Assembly: GCF_021295335.1 (NCBI RefSeq)
Contig: NZ_JAIWOT010000001.1
Span: 2,588,501-2,652,500, forward strand
DNA: 64,000 bases
DNA from: Komagataeibacter sp. FNDCF1
GTDB taxonomy: Bacteria > Pseudomonadota > Alphaproteobacteria > Acetobacterales > Acetobacteraceae
Direction of reading: 5' to 3'
In this document: in pieces, positions 33,028-39,779 of the stretch
Numbering within the stretch: the first letter of the stretch is position 1
Layout: every line of letters starts with the position of its first letter
Notes under the pieces: generated by a model
What the model saw: only the letters and a program-made list of their open reading frames with translations
What the model was told of the DNA's origin: nothing
Databases searched by the model: none
Made by a program: the position numbers and the translations under genes

Positions 33028-35898
33028 ATGCGCGCATATGGGTGGACCTTAAGATCAGGATATGGATTTTTGGCGATCTTCAGCCGTTTTGTCCCTGACT
33101 CGCTCTCTTCTGGCCCGGTGCGTTCGCGCCTGCGTGAACGGCTGGCGGAAGCCGGGGGGCTGGGGCTGTGGATCGTGGCGCTGTGTCTTGCCATAGCATT
33201 ATGGAGCTATGACCCGCGCGACCCATCGGCCAATACCGCCAGCAGCCAGCCGCCGGACAACCTGCTGGGCAGGCCGGGTGCGTACATGGCCGACCTCATG
33301 CTCCAGGATTTTGGAGTCGTGGGCATGCTGGCCATTTTCTGCCTGCTGGCATGGGGCTGGCGGCTGGTCCGTCACCACGGGCTGGCATCGGCCCTGCTGC
33401 GGGGCATAGCCCTGATATGCGGCCTGCCGGTCATTGCGGCGGATATCGCGGCGCTGCCGCTGCTGCTGCCCGGCCTGCATGCACCCCTGTGGCCAACGGA
33501 TGCCGGGGTGGGGGGCGCGGTCGGCCTGTCTGTAGCCCATATGTCCATTCAGGCGGCGACCGTGTTCCTGGGGCGCTGGGGGCCGCTGCTGGTCTGGTCG
33601 CTGGGGCTGGTGCTTGGCGGGCTGCTGCTGCTGCTGGCCATGGCGCTGTCCCTGGCGGAATGGAAGGCCATTGGCCGGGGCATACGCTTCGTCCTGCGCC
33701 AGCCCATGGTGCTGGTGGCATGGCTACGGCGCATGAAGGACCGCACCCCCCCGCCAGGGGACGAGTCAGACAGGGCCACCTATCCCATCCGCAGGCCGGG
33801 GTCCGCGGTGGCCGCCACGGATGGAGCCGCCACCGCGACGGTGGATGACACATCGTTCCTCCGCACCGTCCTGAGCGAACGGGCGACGGCTGCCGCCACG
33901 CCCGGTACGGCCATGACGCCGGTGGCGGCCAGCCCGACCACAAAGGCCGTGGCCGCGCCGGAGGGCAAGGCCATGACCGTTGCCCGCATGGATGAGACGC
34001 AGCCCCCGGCCCTGGTGGGCCACAAGGCGGAGTCCGGCAGGCCCGCGCAGGTTTCGCTCCAGACAAGCTGGATGCACCCGCCGGGCATGGATGAAGACGT
34101 GGCGCCGCCGCTGCTCATGGGCGGGCCCGCGCCCAAGCCCGCTTCGGACCGCGCGCCGTGGCATGAAGAGCCGGTCGCGGCCGAGACGAAACCCTTCATC
34201 ATGACCCCGGACGATGAGGATGACCTGCCGGCTGTGCCTGCCGAGCCCGCGCGCTCAGGCTTTCTGTCGCGCATCTTCTCGGGCGGCAGCCGGGCTGGGG
34301 AAGCCCCCCGGCCCGAGCCGGATGAGTACAGTCCCCCGTCAATGCCCCCCGTCGTGGAGGAAAGCTACACCCCGCCGCCCCAGCCGGAATGGCAGTTCCC
34401 GCCGCTGTCGCTGCTCAAGCCGCCGCCGTCCGATGCCGCGACCAAACCGACCGAGGAACTGCTCCAGGCCAACGCCACCCATCTTGTCACCGTGCTGTCC
34501 GAATATGGCGTGCAGGGGGAGATCGTGGCCTATCATGCCGGCCCGGTTGTCACCCTGTATGAACTGCAGCCCGCACCCGGCATCCGCGCCGCCCGTGTGA
34601 TCGGCCTGGCTGATGACGTGGCGCGCTCGCTCTCGGTGCTCAGCGTGCGCATCGCCACCGTGCCGGGGCGCAACGTGATCGGGATCGAGGTACCCAATGC
34701 GCGGCGGGAGACGGTCTATTTCTCCGAACTGCTGGGCGACCCGCAATGGGCGCATTCGCGCAACCGGCTCAATCTGGCGCTGGGCAAGGATATCGCAGGC
34801 GAATCGGTCTACAGCGACCTTGGCGCCATGCCGCACCTGCTGATCGCGGGCACCACCGGGTCGGGCAAGTCGGTGGGCGTGAACTCCATGATCCTGTCGC
34901 TGCTCTACCGCCTCTCGCCCGAGCAGTGCCGCCTGATCCTGATTGACCCCAAGATTCTCGAGCTTTCGATCTACGAGGGCATTCCCCATCTCATGACCCC
35001 GGTCGTAACCGAACCGGCCAAGGCGGTCGCCGCCCTGAAATGGGCGGTGCGCGAGATGGATCGCCGGTACCGCGCCATGGCGCACCTGCAGGTGCGCAAC
35101 ATCGCCAGTTACAATGATCGTGTGGCCGAAGCGCGCGCACGTGGCGAGATCGTGACCCGCCGCGTGCAGACCGGCTACGACCCCGAAACCGGCAAGCCCA
35201 CGTTCGAGGAACAGCAGCTTGCCCTCGATTCCCTGCCATATCTCGTCATCGTGGTGGACGAGATGGCCGATCTCATGATCGTGGCGGGCAAGGAGATCGA
35301 AGCCCTGCTGCAGCGCCTGGCGCAGAAGGCGCGTGCTGCGGGCATTCACCTGATCCTGGCCACCCAGCGGCCATCGGTGGATGTGATTACCGGCACCATC
35401 AAGGCGAACTTTCCCACCCGTATCTCCTTTCAGGTCATCAGCAAGTTCGACAGCCGCACCATCCTGGGCGAGCAGGGGGCCGAACAGTTGCTGGGGCGGG
35501 GTGACATGCTGTTCATGCAGGCCGGTGGCCGGATCACGCGCGTGCACGGGCCCTTCGTCGATGACAGCGAGGTCGAGGCTGTCGTCGCCTTCCTGCGCAC
35601 GCAGGGGGAGCCGATCTATGATGATGATGTCATCTCCCCGCAGGAGGAGGACAGTTCCGGCAAGCCCTTCTCCGCCCCTGCCGGGGGGGCGGAGGAAGAT
35701 GGCCTGTTCGCCCAGGCGGTGGAGGTCGTGGCGCGGGAAGGCAAGGCGTCGACTTCCTTCATCCAGCGTCATCTCTCGATCGGGTACAACCGTGCCGCCA
35801 AGATCATCGAACAGATGGAAAAGGAAGGTCTCGTCAGCGAGGCCAATCATGTCGGGCGGCGTGAAGTGCTCATGCGCCGCACCACGGAAGACGAATGA
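33028..35898 (+). CDS. ftsK: DNA translocase FtsK
   Basis: A 956-residue septum-located DNA pump that clears and pairs chromosome termini at division. About four transmembrane helices lie in residues 45-215, followed by a Pro/Ala-rich linker to about 480. The motor domain has Walker A GTTGSGKS near 606 and the Walker B segment VIVVDEMADLMIV near 745. The C-terminal gamma winged helix (about 890-956, ASTSFIQRHLSIGYNRAAKI) normally reads KOPS sequences. A later start near 33118 is possible. The RluA-like gene begins within its stop codon (ATGA). A close copy of the gamma domain occurs in the protein encoded at 38781. Confidence 0.96.
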   Translation: MRAYGWTLRSGYGFLAIFSRFVPDSLSSGPVRSRLRERLAEAGGLGLWIVALCLAIALWSYDPRDPSANTASSQPPDNLLGRPGAYMADLMLQDFGVVGMLAIFCLLAWGWRLVRHHGLASALLRGIALICGLPVIAADIAALPLLLPGLHAPLWPTDAGVGGAVGLSVAHMSIQAATVFLGRWGPLLVWSLGLVLGGLLLLLAMALSLAEWKAIGRGIRFVLRQPMVLVAWLRRMKDRTPPPGDESDRATYPIRRPGSAVAATDGAATATVDDTSFLRTVLSERATAAATPGTAMTPVAASPTTKAVAAPEGKAMTVARMDETQPPALVGHKAESGRPAQVSLQTSWMHPPGMDEDVAPPLLMGGPAPKPASDRAPWHEEPVAAETKPFIMTPDDEDDLPAVPAEPARSGFLSRIFSGGSRAGEAPRPEPDEYSPPSMPPVVEESYTPPPQPEWQFPPLSLLKPPPSDAATKPTEELLQANATHLVTVLSEYGVQGEIVAYHAGPVVTLYELQPAPGIRAARVIGLADDVARSLSVLSVRIATVPGRNVIGIEVPNARRETVYFSELLGDPQWAHSRNRLNLALGKDIAGESVYSDLGAMPHLLIAGTTGSGKSVGVNSMILSLLYRLSPEQCRLILIDPKILELSIYEGIPHLMTPVVTEPAKAVAALKWAVREMDRRYRAMAHLQVRNIASYNDRVAEARARGEIVTRRVQTGYDPETGKPTFEEQQLALDSLPYLVIVVDEMADLMIVAGKEIEALLQRLAQKARAAGIHLILATQRPSVDVITGTIKANFPTRISFQVISKFDSRTILGEQGAEQLLGRGDMLFMQAGGRITRVHGPFVDDSEVEAVVAFLRTQGEPIYDDDVISPQEEDSSGKPFSAPAGGAEEDGLFAQAVEVVAREGKASTSFIQRHLSIGYNRAAKIIEQMEKEGLVSEANHVGRREVLMRRTTEDE

Positions 35899-36656
35899 CC
35901 CGTCCCGCCCCGCCGCGTGGGTCATTACCCTCTTCCACCCCCCTGCCATGTGCGGTCCTGTACCGTGACAGCAGGTTTGTCGTGCTGGACAAGCCGCCCG
36001 GCCTGCCGGTGCATCCGTCGCGTGCGGGTGGCCCCAGTGTCGAGGACTGGTTTCCCCTGCTTTCGCGCCACCGCACCGGGCCATGGCTGGTCCACCGGCT
36101 GGATCAGGACACGGCGGGCTGCCTTGTGGTGGCGCTGCGCAAGCATGCCCTTGTCGCGGCACAGGAATGCTTTGCGGCAGGGCGGGTACGCAAGACGTAC
36201 TGGGCCATCGTGCACGGTGTACCGGCCGGTCCGTCCGGCGTGGTGGACGCCCCGCTTGCGCGCGTGGAGCAGGGCCGCCAGTGGCACATGCAGGTCGTGG
36301 CCGAAGGTCGTGGCCAGCCCGCCCGCACGCGCTGGCGGACCATGGCGACGGGGCGGGACGGGGCGGGCGCGCCGGTCAGCTGGCTGGAACTGGTGCTGGA
36401 AACCGGGCGCACGCATCAGGCCCGCGTGCATTGCGCGGCGCTGGGCTGCCCCATAGTGGGGGACGGGCGCTATGGCGCGCGGGACGCGGGGGCGCTACAT
36501 CTCATGAGCCGGAGCATCCACCTGCCGCTGGACGTTCCCGTGAATGCCATGGCCATGCCGCCTGCGCATATGGCCCGTCTCATGGCGCAGGCTGGCTGGA
36601 CCCTCCCGCCTGGCAACGTGGAAAAGGAAGCAACACGGTGTTTGCCCACACATTGA
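35895..36656 (+). CDS. RluA-family RNA pseudouridine synthase
   Basis: A 253-residue protein with the RluA catalytic signature HRLDQDTAGCLVVA near residue 69-82 and the later ETGRTHQARVHCAALGCPIVGD. There is no S4 domain, so it is of the short RluC/TruC-like type. It converts uridine to pseudouridine in rRNA or tRNA; the target is unknown. It overlaps the ftsK stop by 4 bp and the next gene by 19 bp, so it is part of an ftsK-led operon. Confidence 0.9.
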   Translation: MTRPAPPRGSLPSSTPLPCAVLYRDSRFVVLDKPPGLPVHPSRAGGPSVEDWFPLLSRHRTGPWLVHRLDQDTAGCLVVALRKHALVAAQECFAAGRVRKTYWAIVHGVPAGPSGVVDAPLARVEQGRQWHMQVVAEGRGQPARTRWRTMATGRDGAGAPVSWLELVLETGRTHQARVHCAALGCPIVGDGRYGARDAGALHLMSRSIHLPLDVPVNAMAMPPAHMARLMAQAGWTLPPGNVEKEATRCLPTH

Positions 36657-38746
36657 CGCAGGAACTGCTGCGCGTTCTGGAACGACCCGACCTGCGCGTG
36701 ATCGCGGGCGAGCGGCAGATCATGCTGGACCCTGGGCTTGACCTTCCTTTCCGCATCCTCCCCACAGGTGCCGTCGTGCTGGGCCTGCCCGCGCAGGGAC
36801 AGCAGGAGGAGACGGCCTTCTTCTTGCGCCATGCGCTGGAACTGGCAGCACTGCTGGAACTGGCGCCCGATGCCAGCCTTTGTGCCGGTTTCTGTGCTGC
36901 CCGCACGGCGGCGCTGTTCTGGTACCTCGATACCGGCCGGGCGGAGACCGACGCCCCGGCCGCATGGGTGCCGGACATGGCGCGGGCCGATGTGCCCGGC
37001 CCCGCGGCGCTGCGTGCGATCTGGCCCGGGCTTGCGCCATTGCAGCCCGTGTCCGGCCATGACACGGGCGCCGATGCCTTTGTCACGCTCCATGCCCGCC
37101 TGCTGGCCCTGTGGCCCATGCTGGGACCGACCGAAAACCTGATGGCCACGGGGGGCGATGCCCGGCTGGCGGTGGACCCGGCCACCGGCCTCAACCATTA
37201 TGGCTGTTCGCACCGGCCACGGCCGTGGGCCATCACCTTTGCGTCCTCCACGGCGTCGTCACTGTCCGAACGCGGTTTCGCCGGGGCGGAAAAGGCACGC
37301 CTGTCATTGCTGGCCGGTGCGTTGCAGGGCAGGGGGGATGCCACTGCGTGCCAGCTTGATGGCGATATCCAGAACCGGATCGCGGCGCATTTCGGCCTGA
37401 CGCAGGCGGAGGGGGTGGTGCTGGCCCCGTCGGGCACGGATTGCGAACTCTATGCCCTGGCGCTGGCCAGCCTTGCCCCCGGTGGCCGGCCGGTCAGCAA
37501 CATCCTGCTCGCACCGGAGGAAACCGGCAGCGGCGTGCCGTTTGCCGCAAGGGGCTGTCACTTCGCCAATGATACCGCCCTGGGCCACCGCGTGACCAAA
37601 GGGGAGCGGATAGAGGGATTCGCGGATGATACGCTGGTCATCAACGTGCCCATGCGCGATGTGGCCGGCCATGTGCGCCCGCCCGCGGATGTGGACGCCG
37701 AGGCCTGCCGCCTGACATGGGGGATGCGCCATGCGGGCCAGCATGTGCTGCTGCATCGTCTCGACCTGTCCAAGACCGGCCTGCTGGCCCCCAGCCTGGC
37801 GGCGCTGGAACATGCCTGTGCAACGGAGGGAGAGGACAGCCCCCGCCCTGACGTGGTGGTGGATGCCTGCCAGGCCCGGCTGGACCCGGTTCGCGTGCGC
37901 GCCTACCTGGACATGGGGTGGATGGTCATGGTGACCGGGTCGAAATTCTTTACCGGCCCGCCTTTCTGCGGCGCACTGCTGCTGCCCGCCGGTGTCCGGC
38001 GCAGGCTGGATGGCGCCCGGTCGCTTCCCGCCGGGCTGGGTGACTACAGCTACCGCCATGCCTGGCCTGCCGGGCGGGCTTGTGACATGCTGCCGGAGGG
38101 GCATAATATCGGCCTGATCCTGCGCTGGCAGGCGGCGCTGGCGGAAATGGCGGCGCTGAGTGCCATCCCCCGTGCGCTGATCCATGACCGGCTGCGGGGC
38201 TTCCTGTCCGCCGTTGCGGACCGCATCACGGCGGACCCGGCGCTGGAACTGCTGCCCCCCGTCGCCCCCGCCCGGCCACCGCTGGACGATGCATGGGACA
38301 GCCTGCCCACGATCCTCAGTTTCTTTGTCCGTGCGCCCGACAGCACGGACGGGGGTTTCCGCCCGCTGGCCCTGCTCCAGGCGCGAATGCTTTACGCATG
38401 GCTCAATACCGACCTGTCCGGCCTTGTGCCCGATGATGACCCCGATGCGGGGCTGGCCGCCGTGCTGTGCCATGTCGGCCAGCCGGTGCCGCTGGCCCAT
38501 CCCAGCCTGCCCGGTGAAATCGCGGGGGCGCTGCGCATTTCAGCCGGGGCGCGGCTTGTCTCGGGCGAGCCATCGCATGCGGGCATGGACCCCGGTGAAC
38601 GGCTGCAGCGTGAAGTCCGGAACGTGAGCCAGATACTGGGCAAGATCAGCCTGATCCTGCGCCACTGGTCCCGACTGGAACGCGCCGCGCCGGTGCAGAC
38701 CTACCTGCCGCGTGGCTGGCAGGCGCAGGCCGTTCTGCCTGCCTGA
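36638..38746 (+). CDS. Uncharacterised protein resembling fold-type I PLP-dependent enzymes
   Basis: A 702-residue protein I do not recognise by name. The first roughly 170 residues have no clear similarity. The middle part reads like an aminotransferase/kynureninase-type fold: APSGTDCELYALALASLAPG, then VVVDACQARLD (possible PLP-ring Asp near residue 408), then VTGSKFFTGPPFCGALLLP, whose Lys (about 436) is in the position of a PLP-binding Lys. The C-terminal 250 residues are mostly helical. GTG 36638 is chosen because AAGGAAG lies just upstream; a longer open frame upstream only overlaps the RluA-like gene. It is located between the RluA-like and phosphatase-gamma genes, and its substrate is unknown. 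Confidence 0.75.
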   Translation: MFAHTLTQELLRVLERPDLRVIAGERQIMLDPGLDLPFRILPTGAVVLGLPAQGQQEETAFFLRHALELAALLELAPDASLCAGFCAARTAALFWYLDTGRAETDAPAAWVPDMARADVPGPAALRAIWPGLAPLQPVSGHDTGADAFVTLHARLLALWPMLGPTENLMATGGDARLAVDPATGLNHYGCSHRPRPWAITFASSTASSLSERGFAGAEKARLSLLAGALQGRGDATACQLDGDIQNRIAAHFGLTQAEGVVLAPSGTDCELYALALASLAPGGRPVSNILLAPEETGSGVPFAARGCHFANDTALGHRVTKGERIEGFADDTLVINVPMRDVAGHVRPPADVDAEACRLTWGMRHAGQHVLLHRLDLSKTGLLAPSLAALEHACATEGEDSPRPDVVVDACQARLDPVRVRAYLDMGWMVMVTGSKFFTGPPFCGALLLPAGVRRRLDGARSLPAGLGDYSYRHAWPAGRACDMLPEGHNIGLILRWQAALAEMAALSAIPRALIHDRLRGFLSAVADRITADPALELLPPVAPARPPLDDAWDSLPTILSFFVRAPDSTDGGFRPLALLQARMLYAWLNTDLSGLVPDDDPDAGLAAVLCHVGQPVPLAHPSLPGEIAGALRISAGARLVSGEPSHAGMDPGERLQREVRNVSQILGKISLILRHWSRLERAAPVQTYLPRGWQAQAVLPA

Positions 38747-38780: not shown

Positions 38781-39779
38781 GTGAGCACCCAGACCAACCA
38801 CGGCAATTTTCTCGATACCCCCCAGTTGCAGAAAGGCGTGACCCGATTCTGGCTGATCCGGCATGCGCTGGTGGAGCGTAATGCCCGTGCCCAACTGTAT
38901 GGCACGATGGATGTCGCACTCTGCCCCGACAGCCTGCAGGCCCAGCGCTGGATGTATGAAGCCCTGGCGCGCCGACTGCCACATCCGGCGCTGTGGTTCA
39001 CATCGCCCCTGTCGCGCACGCAGCAGACGGCGCGCGCCATTCAGGAAGCAGGGTATGGCCCGCATGAATGGCAGGTCGAGCCGGATCTGATCGAACAGTC
39101 GCTGGGGGACTGGCATGGCATCGAGCACCATACCCTGCCCGACAGGCTGAGCCTGCCCGCCCATCCGTTCTGGTCCGTCAGCGCCACCGAACTGCCGCCG
39201 CAGGGGGAAAGCATGGTGCAGGTCTGCGCGCGGGTGGGGGCGTGCCTGGACCGGCTGGCCGCGCGCCATGCGGGGCAGGATATGGTTGTGGTCAGCCACG
39301 GGGGCGCCATTCGCGGGGCGCTGGCCCATGCGCTCCGGATCCATGCCGATACGGCACTGCATTTCTCCATCCAGAACCTGGCTCTGAGCGTGATAGAACG
39401 CCTGCCCGAAGGCTGGCGGATCGTGACCGTGAACGAACTGCCCCAGGTTCCGGTGCAGGGGCATGGCCCTGCGTCTTTCCACGGCGATGCCGGCTTCCTT
39501 TCCGTTGACCGGACGGCAGTGGACAGGGTTCTGGCCATGTCCGCCACCGACCCCGCCGGGGAGGATGAGGACGAAGCCTGCACGGACGGCCTTTACGCCC
39601 GGGCGGTTGCGCTCGTGGCGCATGAGGGCCGGGCATCGACCTCCTTCATCCAGCGGCACCTTTCGATCAGCTACAACCACGCTGCCACGATTATCGCGCG
39701 CATGGAGAAGGAAGGCCTGGTAAGCGAGGCCAATCACGTCGGGCGGCGCGCGGTTCTCATGCGCAATACGGCGGATTAG
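38781..39779 (+). CDS. Histidine phosphatase fused to an FtsK gamma-type DNA-binding domain
   Basis: A 332-residue protein. Residues about 20-205 form a histidine phosphatase (phosphoglycerate-mutase-like) domain: FWLIRHALVERNA with the nucleophile His at 28, SPLSRTQQTARAI, an acidic LIEQSLGDWHG, and VVVSHGGAIRGAL with the second His. An acidic linker (EDEDEAC) leads to residues 269-332, which match the FtsK gamma winged helix encoded at 35698-35895 at about 77% identity (ASTSFIQRHLSI, MEKEGLVSEANHVGRR). In the recognition helix YNRAAK has become YNHAAT. The GTG at 38781 is the likely start. It appears to belong to the ftsK operon. A DNA-targeted or KOPS-related phosphatase is inferred. Confidence 0.85.
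   Translation: MSTQTNHGNFLDTPQLQKGVTRFWLIRHALVERNARAQLYGTMDVALCPDSLQAQRWMYEALARRLPHPALWFTSPLSRTQQTARAIQEAGYGPHEWQVEPDLIEQSLGDWHGIEHHTLPDRLSLPAHPFWSVSATELPPQGESMVQVCARVGACLDRLAARHAGQDMVVVSHGGAIRGALAHALRIHADTALHFSIQNLALSVIERLPEGWRIVTVNELPQVPVQGHGPASFHGDAGFLSVDRTAVDRVLAMSATDPAGEDEDEACTDGLYARAVALVAHEGRASTSFIQRHLSISYNHAATIIARMEKEGLVSEANHVGRRAVLMRNTAD

Follow-up and report, generated by a model that had tools for sequence, protein, structure and literature searches.

A histidine phosphatase carrying an FtsK gamma-like winged helix in one clade of Komagataeibacter

Komagataeibacter are vinegar bacteria, and FtsK is the division motor. Its gamma domain is best described in E. coli FtsK, whose residue numbers are used throughout. 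According to the available part of PMC2680272, the substitutions R1300A and E1303A each render KOPS recognition defective with residual activity, and both still supported XerCD-dif recombination. The triple mutant N1296A/R1300A/E1303A is described in the accessible text of PMC2533119 as abrogated in KOPS recognition. In the consulted portion of PMC5052618, one KOPS is bound by three gamma domains during motor loading and R1289 is the main XerD contact of the domain; residues 1289-1297 fused to XerC stimulate recombination, for which R1297 itself is dispensable. A search of the open-licence literature by title found no publication on a fusion of a phosphatase with FtsK gamma, which is weak evidence of absence.

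Such a fusion is encoded in the window, by which we mean the whole stretch of 64,000 nucleotides of Komagataeibacter sp. FNDCF1 that was analysed (contig NZ_JAIWOT010000001.1, positions 2,588,501 to 2,652,500). The window's own genome is referred to as G000. The relevant features are:

33028-35898, plus strand: ftsK, 956 amino acids, likely source of the fused gamma domain, Pfam gamma at residues 889-949
38781-39779, plus strand: fusion gene, histidine phosphatase plus linker plus FtsK gamma-like winged helix, 332 amino acids, GTG start
38847-39437, plus strand: His_Phos_1 domain, residues 23-219, Pfam 150.9 bits, aligned to 6e4b
39447-39584, plus strand: linker, varying in length and sequence among the three fused species
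39585-39764, plus strand: FtsK gamma-like winged helix, sharing 80% identity over 60 aligned residues with the gamma domain of the window's FtsK

The N-terminal part resembles histidine phosphatase branch 1 (PF00300) in having a full-length domain, which scores far above the Pfam gathering score of 21.7, and the motifs IRHA (residues 26-29), SPLSR (75-79), E105 and VSHGG (171-175). We take these to be the motifs of the histidine phosphatase family, and the assignment of catalytic residues is presumed from the family in the same way. It differs from branch 1 in its C-terminal winged helix and in its score for the best NCBIfam model, TIGR03162 alpha-ribazole phosphatase, of 102.9 bits against an equivalog cut-off of 162.9. 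Because of this low score the protein was not called an alpha-ribazole phosphatase. The best 50 of 1580 Foldseek matches in the PDB were phosphatases and mutases, which presumably represent the histidine phosphatase superfamily; the matches listed include the riboflavin-pathway enzyme 9mmh and phosphoserine phosphatases. The resemblance of the domain at 38847-39437 to 9mmh, described as a riboflavin-biosynthesis histidine phosphatase, is reported here as a side observation. Across 150 genomes sampled from the family, a match with E <1e-29 was present in 132. These were counted as phosphatase since they are stronger than every gamma match listed, of which the best was 4.3e-25. Given a strong match in so many genomes, a housekeeping step would fit this enzyme; its sequence does not settle the substrate.

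The C-terminal part has the same length as FtsK gamma (PF09397) and exceeds the Pfam cut-off, with 74.3 bits at residues 268-327 against a gathering score of 30.6. The 60 matching codons of ftsK lie at 35698-35877. In contrast to FtsK, the fusion lacks motor and membrane domains: the phosphatase is the sole domain N-terminal to the fused gamma, and no translocase was found by Pfam. An earlier interpretation of the same DNA, made without database searches and called here the sequence-only reading, had recognized the open reading frame, its coordinates and the domain pair correctly, as borne out by Pfam. It had also placed FtsK 3 kb upstream and put the identity over the last 64 residues at about 77%, in agreement with the 2882 nt between the ftsK stop and the fusion start and the 49 identical residues out of 64 (77%).

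A structure model of the fusion, built from 30 aligned rows, reached a mean pLDDT of 65.9 and a pTM of 0.54. The gamma region was modelled with confidence (pLDDT of 84 to 92 in blocks spanning residues 271-320) and contains helices at 269-282, 287-294 and 298-310. The phosphatase part was mixed, and linker residues 224-266 had a pLDDT below 50. We read this model as two domains that would be joined by a flexible tether, their relative placement in it being untrustworthy.

Two genes occupy the interval between ftsK and the fusion gene, one similar to RluA-family pseudouridine synthases but under the NCBIfam cut-offs, the other a long open reading frame without family match. Within the latter, which follows the RluA-like gene, a 701-residue stretch (36641-38743, plus strand) had no match in Pfam (E <=1), NCBIfam (E <=0.1) or the PDB sequences (E <=1). 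Its TGSKFFTGPPFCG recalls, on our assumption, PLP-dependent enzymes. This frame ends at 38746, and because only 34 nt separate it from the fusion gene the two may be co-transcribed. A TadA-like gene, below the NCBIfam cut-off, comes next after the fusion gene. A promoter scan found none, and two terminator-like sites were observed against a mean of 0.7 in shuffles.

The phosphatase was present at the same place, 2875 to 2886 nt 3' of ftsK, in all 19 Komagataeibacter genomes sampled, and the starts of the homologues correspond to the position of the GTG start. Its match extends into gamma in three of them, namely G000 and two further species, G008 and G013, which share its architecture and location; PF09397 scores 56.7 bits in G008 and 65.3 bits in G013. 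Since the fusion recurs at this position in two other species, it did not arise from an assembly error, and an assembly or start artefact, which the sequence-only reading had considered for the gamma part, is refuted by the architecture common to three genomes. In 10 of the 19 genomes the phosphatase is tail-less and ends at 223 residues with VNDLPLP or VNELPMP. A collection of 25 named loci, which may omit the window's own genome or close relatives, contained 13 from Komagataeibacter, of which one (K. rhaeticus) has the tail, and 12 from Gluconacetobacter, Novacetimonas or Gluconobacter, all without it. Among the phosphatase matches listed for the 150 family genomes, which include 3 of the 19 genus genomes, none except the window's own extended past residue 261. 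None of 293 matched plasmid records had one place covering 80% of the query. As to its range, the fusion recurs in two more species and is absent from 16 of the 19 genus genomes. Absence from close relatives and lack of wide conservation, which the sequence-only reading had named as speaking against its own proposal, were thus largely found, although not by way of an assembly or start error.

The gamma domain had been regarded as known only in FtsK. This is contradicted by a 148-aa non-FtsK frame of G002 (contig 11, L065:1231-1674) with a C-terminal gamma of 64.3 bits, and by a 200-codon non-FtsK frame with a gamma of 55.8 bits in G272, which belongs to another genus of the family. Both likewise carry a gamma detached from FtsK; their N-terminal parts and loci differ from those of the fusion, and the phosphatase domain is absent from the G002 protein by Pfam and from the G272 frame by eye. 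The 90-residue N-terminal part of the G002 frame has no Pfam match, a TAA stop lies inside the final residues of its gamma match, and a nearby frame is presumably IspDF-like. Among the 19 genus genomes, a second gamma outside the phosphatase occurred in G002 only.

A gamma search of 299 family genomes, including 7 of the 19 genus genomes and giving places for the best 150 or so matches, yielded a match in 274 and more than one in 8. Seven loci with extra gamma matches (L065 to L071) were examined as open frames, L065 being from this genus and L070 from another family; none was phosphatase-like by eye, and the Pfam scan covered L065 and L068 alone. Further frames with gamma-like winged helices were observed in other genera of the family at L066 and L067, above the Pfam gamma cut-off, and at L068, L069 and L071, below it. 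By eye the latter three have a common layout, with a helix-turn-helix at the N-terminus and a J-like end at the C-terminus; in L068, the one of the three that was scanned, the DnaJ model stayed below its cut-off. Short gamma frames in G147, G126, G044, G168 and G252 were rejected as non-FtsK proteins, FtsK motor sequence preceding them. Motor sequence likewise, and no phosphatase, stands before each of the four gamma places of G147 and G292 and before the short-frame places in G126, G044, G168 and G252.

Trees were computed from three regions, singly and combined: the 3' part of ftsK, the phosphatase core and the stretch between these two genes. The three fused genomes form one clade with a support of 1.00 in the combined tree and of 0.998, 0.999 and 1.000 in the single trees. 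This clade is joined with G004, G009, G010, G011, G006 and G016 in the combined tree (0.875) and in the trees of ftsK (0.662) and of the stretch between the genes (0.679). We call this grouping weak because of these values and because the phosphatase-core tree did not recover it. In the six neighbouring genomes the phosphatase is 255 or 248 residues long and ends in a non-gamma tail. A gamma-like stretch is present one base out of frame in three of these six species, G004, G009 and G011. Its protein scores of 48, 60 and 52 were not reached in any of 200 dinucleotide shuffles per genome (maxima 40, 48 and 38), and its nucleotide scores against the FtsK gamma of the same genome were 46, 44 and 44 against maxima of 29, 33 and 34 in 200 shuffles. 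In nucleotide comparisons with the fused copies, only three of nine pairs exceeded the shuffle maxima (G004-G000, G004-G013 and G011-G000), and the remnants are closer to FtsK gamma than to the fused copies. A remnant in G010 is weak, its score being reached by 11 of 200 shuffles, and the shuffle-controlled search found none in G006 and G016. The best of the 10 tail-less genomes was G007: its stretch lies some 92 codons downstream, its score was reached in 4 of 200 shuffles, and we take it as probable chance similarity.

The simplest history would be one duplication before the split of the two clades, followed by breakage in one of them. Two separate duplications may have occurred instead, since the remnants are nearer to FtsK gamma and the codon likelihood does not fix the place of the duplication among the three points tested (-914.98 within the fused clade, -916.43 at the genus root and -917.14 on the stem shared by both clades). 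The data do not support a recent gene conversion from ftsK, given a dS between fused gamma and FtsK gamma of the same genome of 0.87 in G000, 1.09 in G008 and 0.82 in G013.

FtsK gamma is identical at all 60 aligned residues in 19 of 19 genus genomes. The fused copies share 58 to 68% identity in pairwise comparison, their phosphatase cores 92 to 94%, and the linker diverges fast among the fused species. A branch model with 12 sequences (the 3 fused copies plus FtsK gamma from 9 of the 19 genomes) gave a dN/dS of 0.23 for fused gamma as opposed to about 0 for FtsK gamma. A dN/dS of 1 on the fused branches was rejected with a 2dlnL of 36.6, and on three alternative trees with 28.1, 34.6 and 25.1, the first of these trees having a much worse fit (-934.25). 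Estimated separately, dN/dS was 0.08 on the G000 branch, 0.35 on the G008/G013 branches and 0.16 on the stem, this split gaining a 2dlnL of 6.3; a value of 1 was rejected for G000 (13.7) and for G008/G013 (11.4) and not for the stem (1.2). For the phosphatase core (9 of the 19 genomes), dN/dS was 0.09 within the fused clade as against 0.055 outside it. Judged by these values for fused gamma, FtsK gamma and core, the fused tail is constrained, but loosely, and far more loosely than FtsK's own gamma. An open frame by itself says little about selection, because in neutral simulations all three copies stayed stop-free over the 60 gamma codons in 12% of cases with shorter branch lengths or in 2.4% otherwise.

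The erosion of the KOPS-reading residues further separates the tail from FtsK gamma. At positions 1296, 1300, 1303, 1306 and 1289, in this order, the residues are N, K, E, E and R in the window's FtsK and N, T, A, E and R in the window's fused copy; the G008 copy has A, R, A, E and G, and the G013 copy S, R, G, E and R. E1303 is gone from all three fused copies and N1296 from two, and the set N1296/R1300/E1303 is intact in none. The sequence-only reading had correctly noted the change from YNRAAK to YNHAAT in the recognition helix and had missed the exchange of E for A at position 1303; its view that a gamma duplicated from FtsK had an altered or lost DNA specificity gains support from the erosion in all three copies. 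Positions 1269, 1274, 1275, 1294, 1297, 1300 and 1303 are altered in every fused copy. Retained in all three are 28 of the 60 gamma positions, 19 of which are hydrophobic or glycine.

Our preferred explanation, to which we assign a probability of roughly 60%, is that a duplication of the 3' end of ftsK supplied the phosphatase with an accessory winged helix, folded but probably unable to read KOPS any longer. The duplication would have added linker and gamma to the phosphatase, perhaps in the common ancestor of the fused and the neighbouring clade. In the three fused species the frame would have survived under purifying selection much weaker than that on FtsK's gamma, and in the six neighbouring species gamma would have been shifted out of frame or lost. 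The phosphatase part presumably works as in its unfused relatives. The tail, a predicted winged helix on a flexible tether, would make at most a weak accessory contact with a protein, or with DNA at low specificity. Its absence from 16 of the 19 genomes suggests that it is dispensable at genus level. The dN/dS of 0.08 on the G000 branch counts against this explanation, being stricter than a loosely kept accessory needs.

The same value, together with the rejection of dN/dS = 1 on the fused branches, favours the main rival, in which the winged helix was retargeted to a new DNA or protein partner and, in the fused species, delivers the phosphatase to one particular site or complex. The frames open in all three copies point the same way, as do the altered positions, four of the seven shared ones lying by plain count within or beside the recognition helix. 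However, the helix residues vary by species (N/A/S at 1296, T/R/R at 1300, A/A/G at 1303), so that no shared new surface is apparent, the linker diverges rapidly, and the tail was lost or broken in the neighbouring clade. We consider retargeting doubtful, and marginally more doubtful still that the captured gamma became a targeting module directing the phosphatase to a chromosomal site or to a complex associated with Xer or FtsK in one Komagataeibacter clade. A neutral relic merely unbroken so far in three species would suit the decay in the neighbouring clade, the fast linker, a dN/dS well above that of FtsK gamma, and the frames that survive in 12% of the neutral simulations. Purifying selection argues against a dead relic in the three intact copies, dN/dS = 1 being rejected for the fused branches together and for G000 and G008/G013 separately, if not for the stem; of all the explanations we give this one the least credence.

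The sequence-only reading had proposed that the protein acts where FtsK is loaded or at the divisome. Such a phosphatase, able to read KOPS or to associate with FtsK at the divisome, would accord with the 80% identity of the window's copy and its retained equivalents of N1296, E1306 and R1289, but this copy has T at the R1300 position, where the window's FtsK has K, and A at that of E1303. As far as the cited texts go, each of the single mutants there is defective with residual recognition (PMC2680272), the triple mutant is abrogated (PMC2533119), and motor loading takes three gammas on one KOPS (PMC5052618). The restriction of the fusion to 3 of the 19 genomes, the erosion in all three copies and the remnant in the neighbouring clade also speak against this proposal, and judged by sequence a KOPS or divisome role is unlikely. 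Hardly better placed, if anything slightly worse, is a tail that has retained its contact with XerD and modulates Xer recombination instead of reading DNA. R1289 is retained in two of the three copies, and the reported effects of residues 1289-1297 on XerC, with R1297 unneeded (PMC5052618), and of R1300A and E1303A FtsK, which still supported Xer recombination (PMC2680272), agree with it within the available parts of these sources; against it, G008 has G at 1289, and G1294 and R1297 are altered in all three copies.

On present evidence the fusion is not a sign of a new factor in division or segregation. What is new is the domain architecture, the occurrence of gamma outside FtsK not being new in itself. 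If the captured gamma did serve as a targeting module, the reading head of the division motor would have been reused as an address tag for an enzyme, caught between gain and loss. The locus offers a natural example in which a domain that reads DNA was copied onto an enzyme gene close by, and one genus holds its intact, out-of-frame and tail-less states. Komagataeibacter may therefore provide the set of species for asking whether, once detached from the motor, a winged helix gains a new use or fades.
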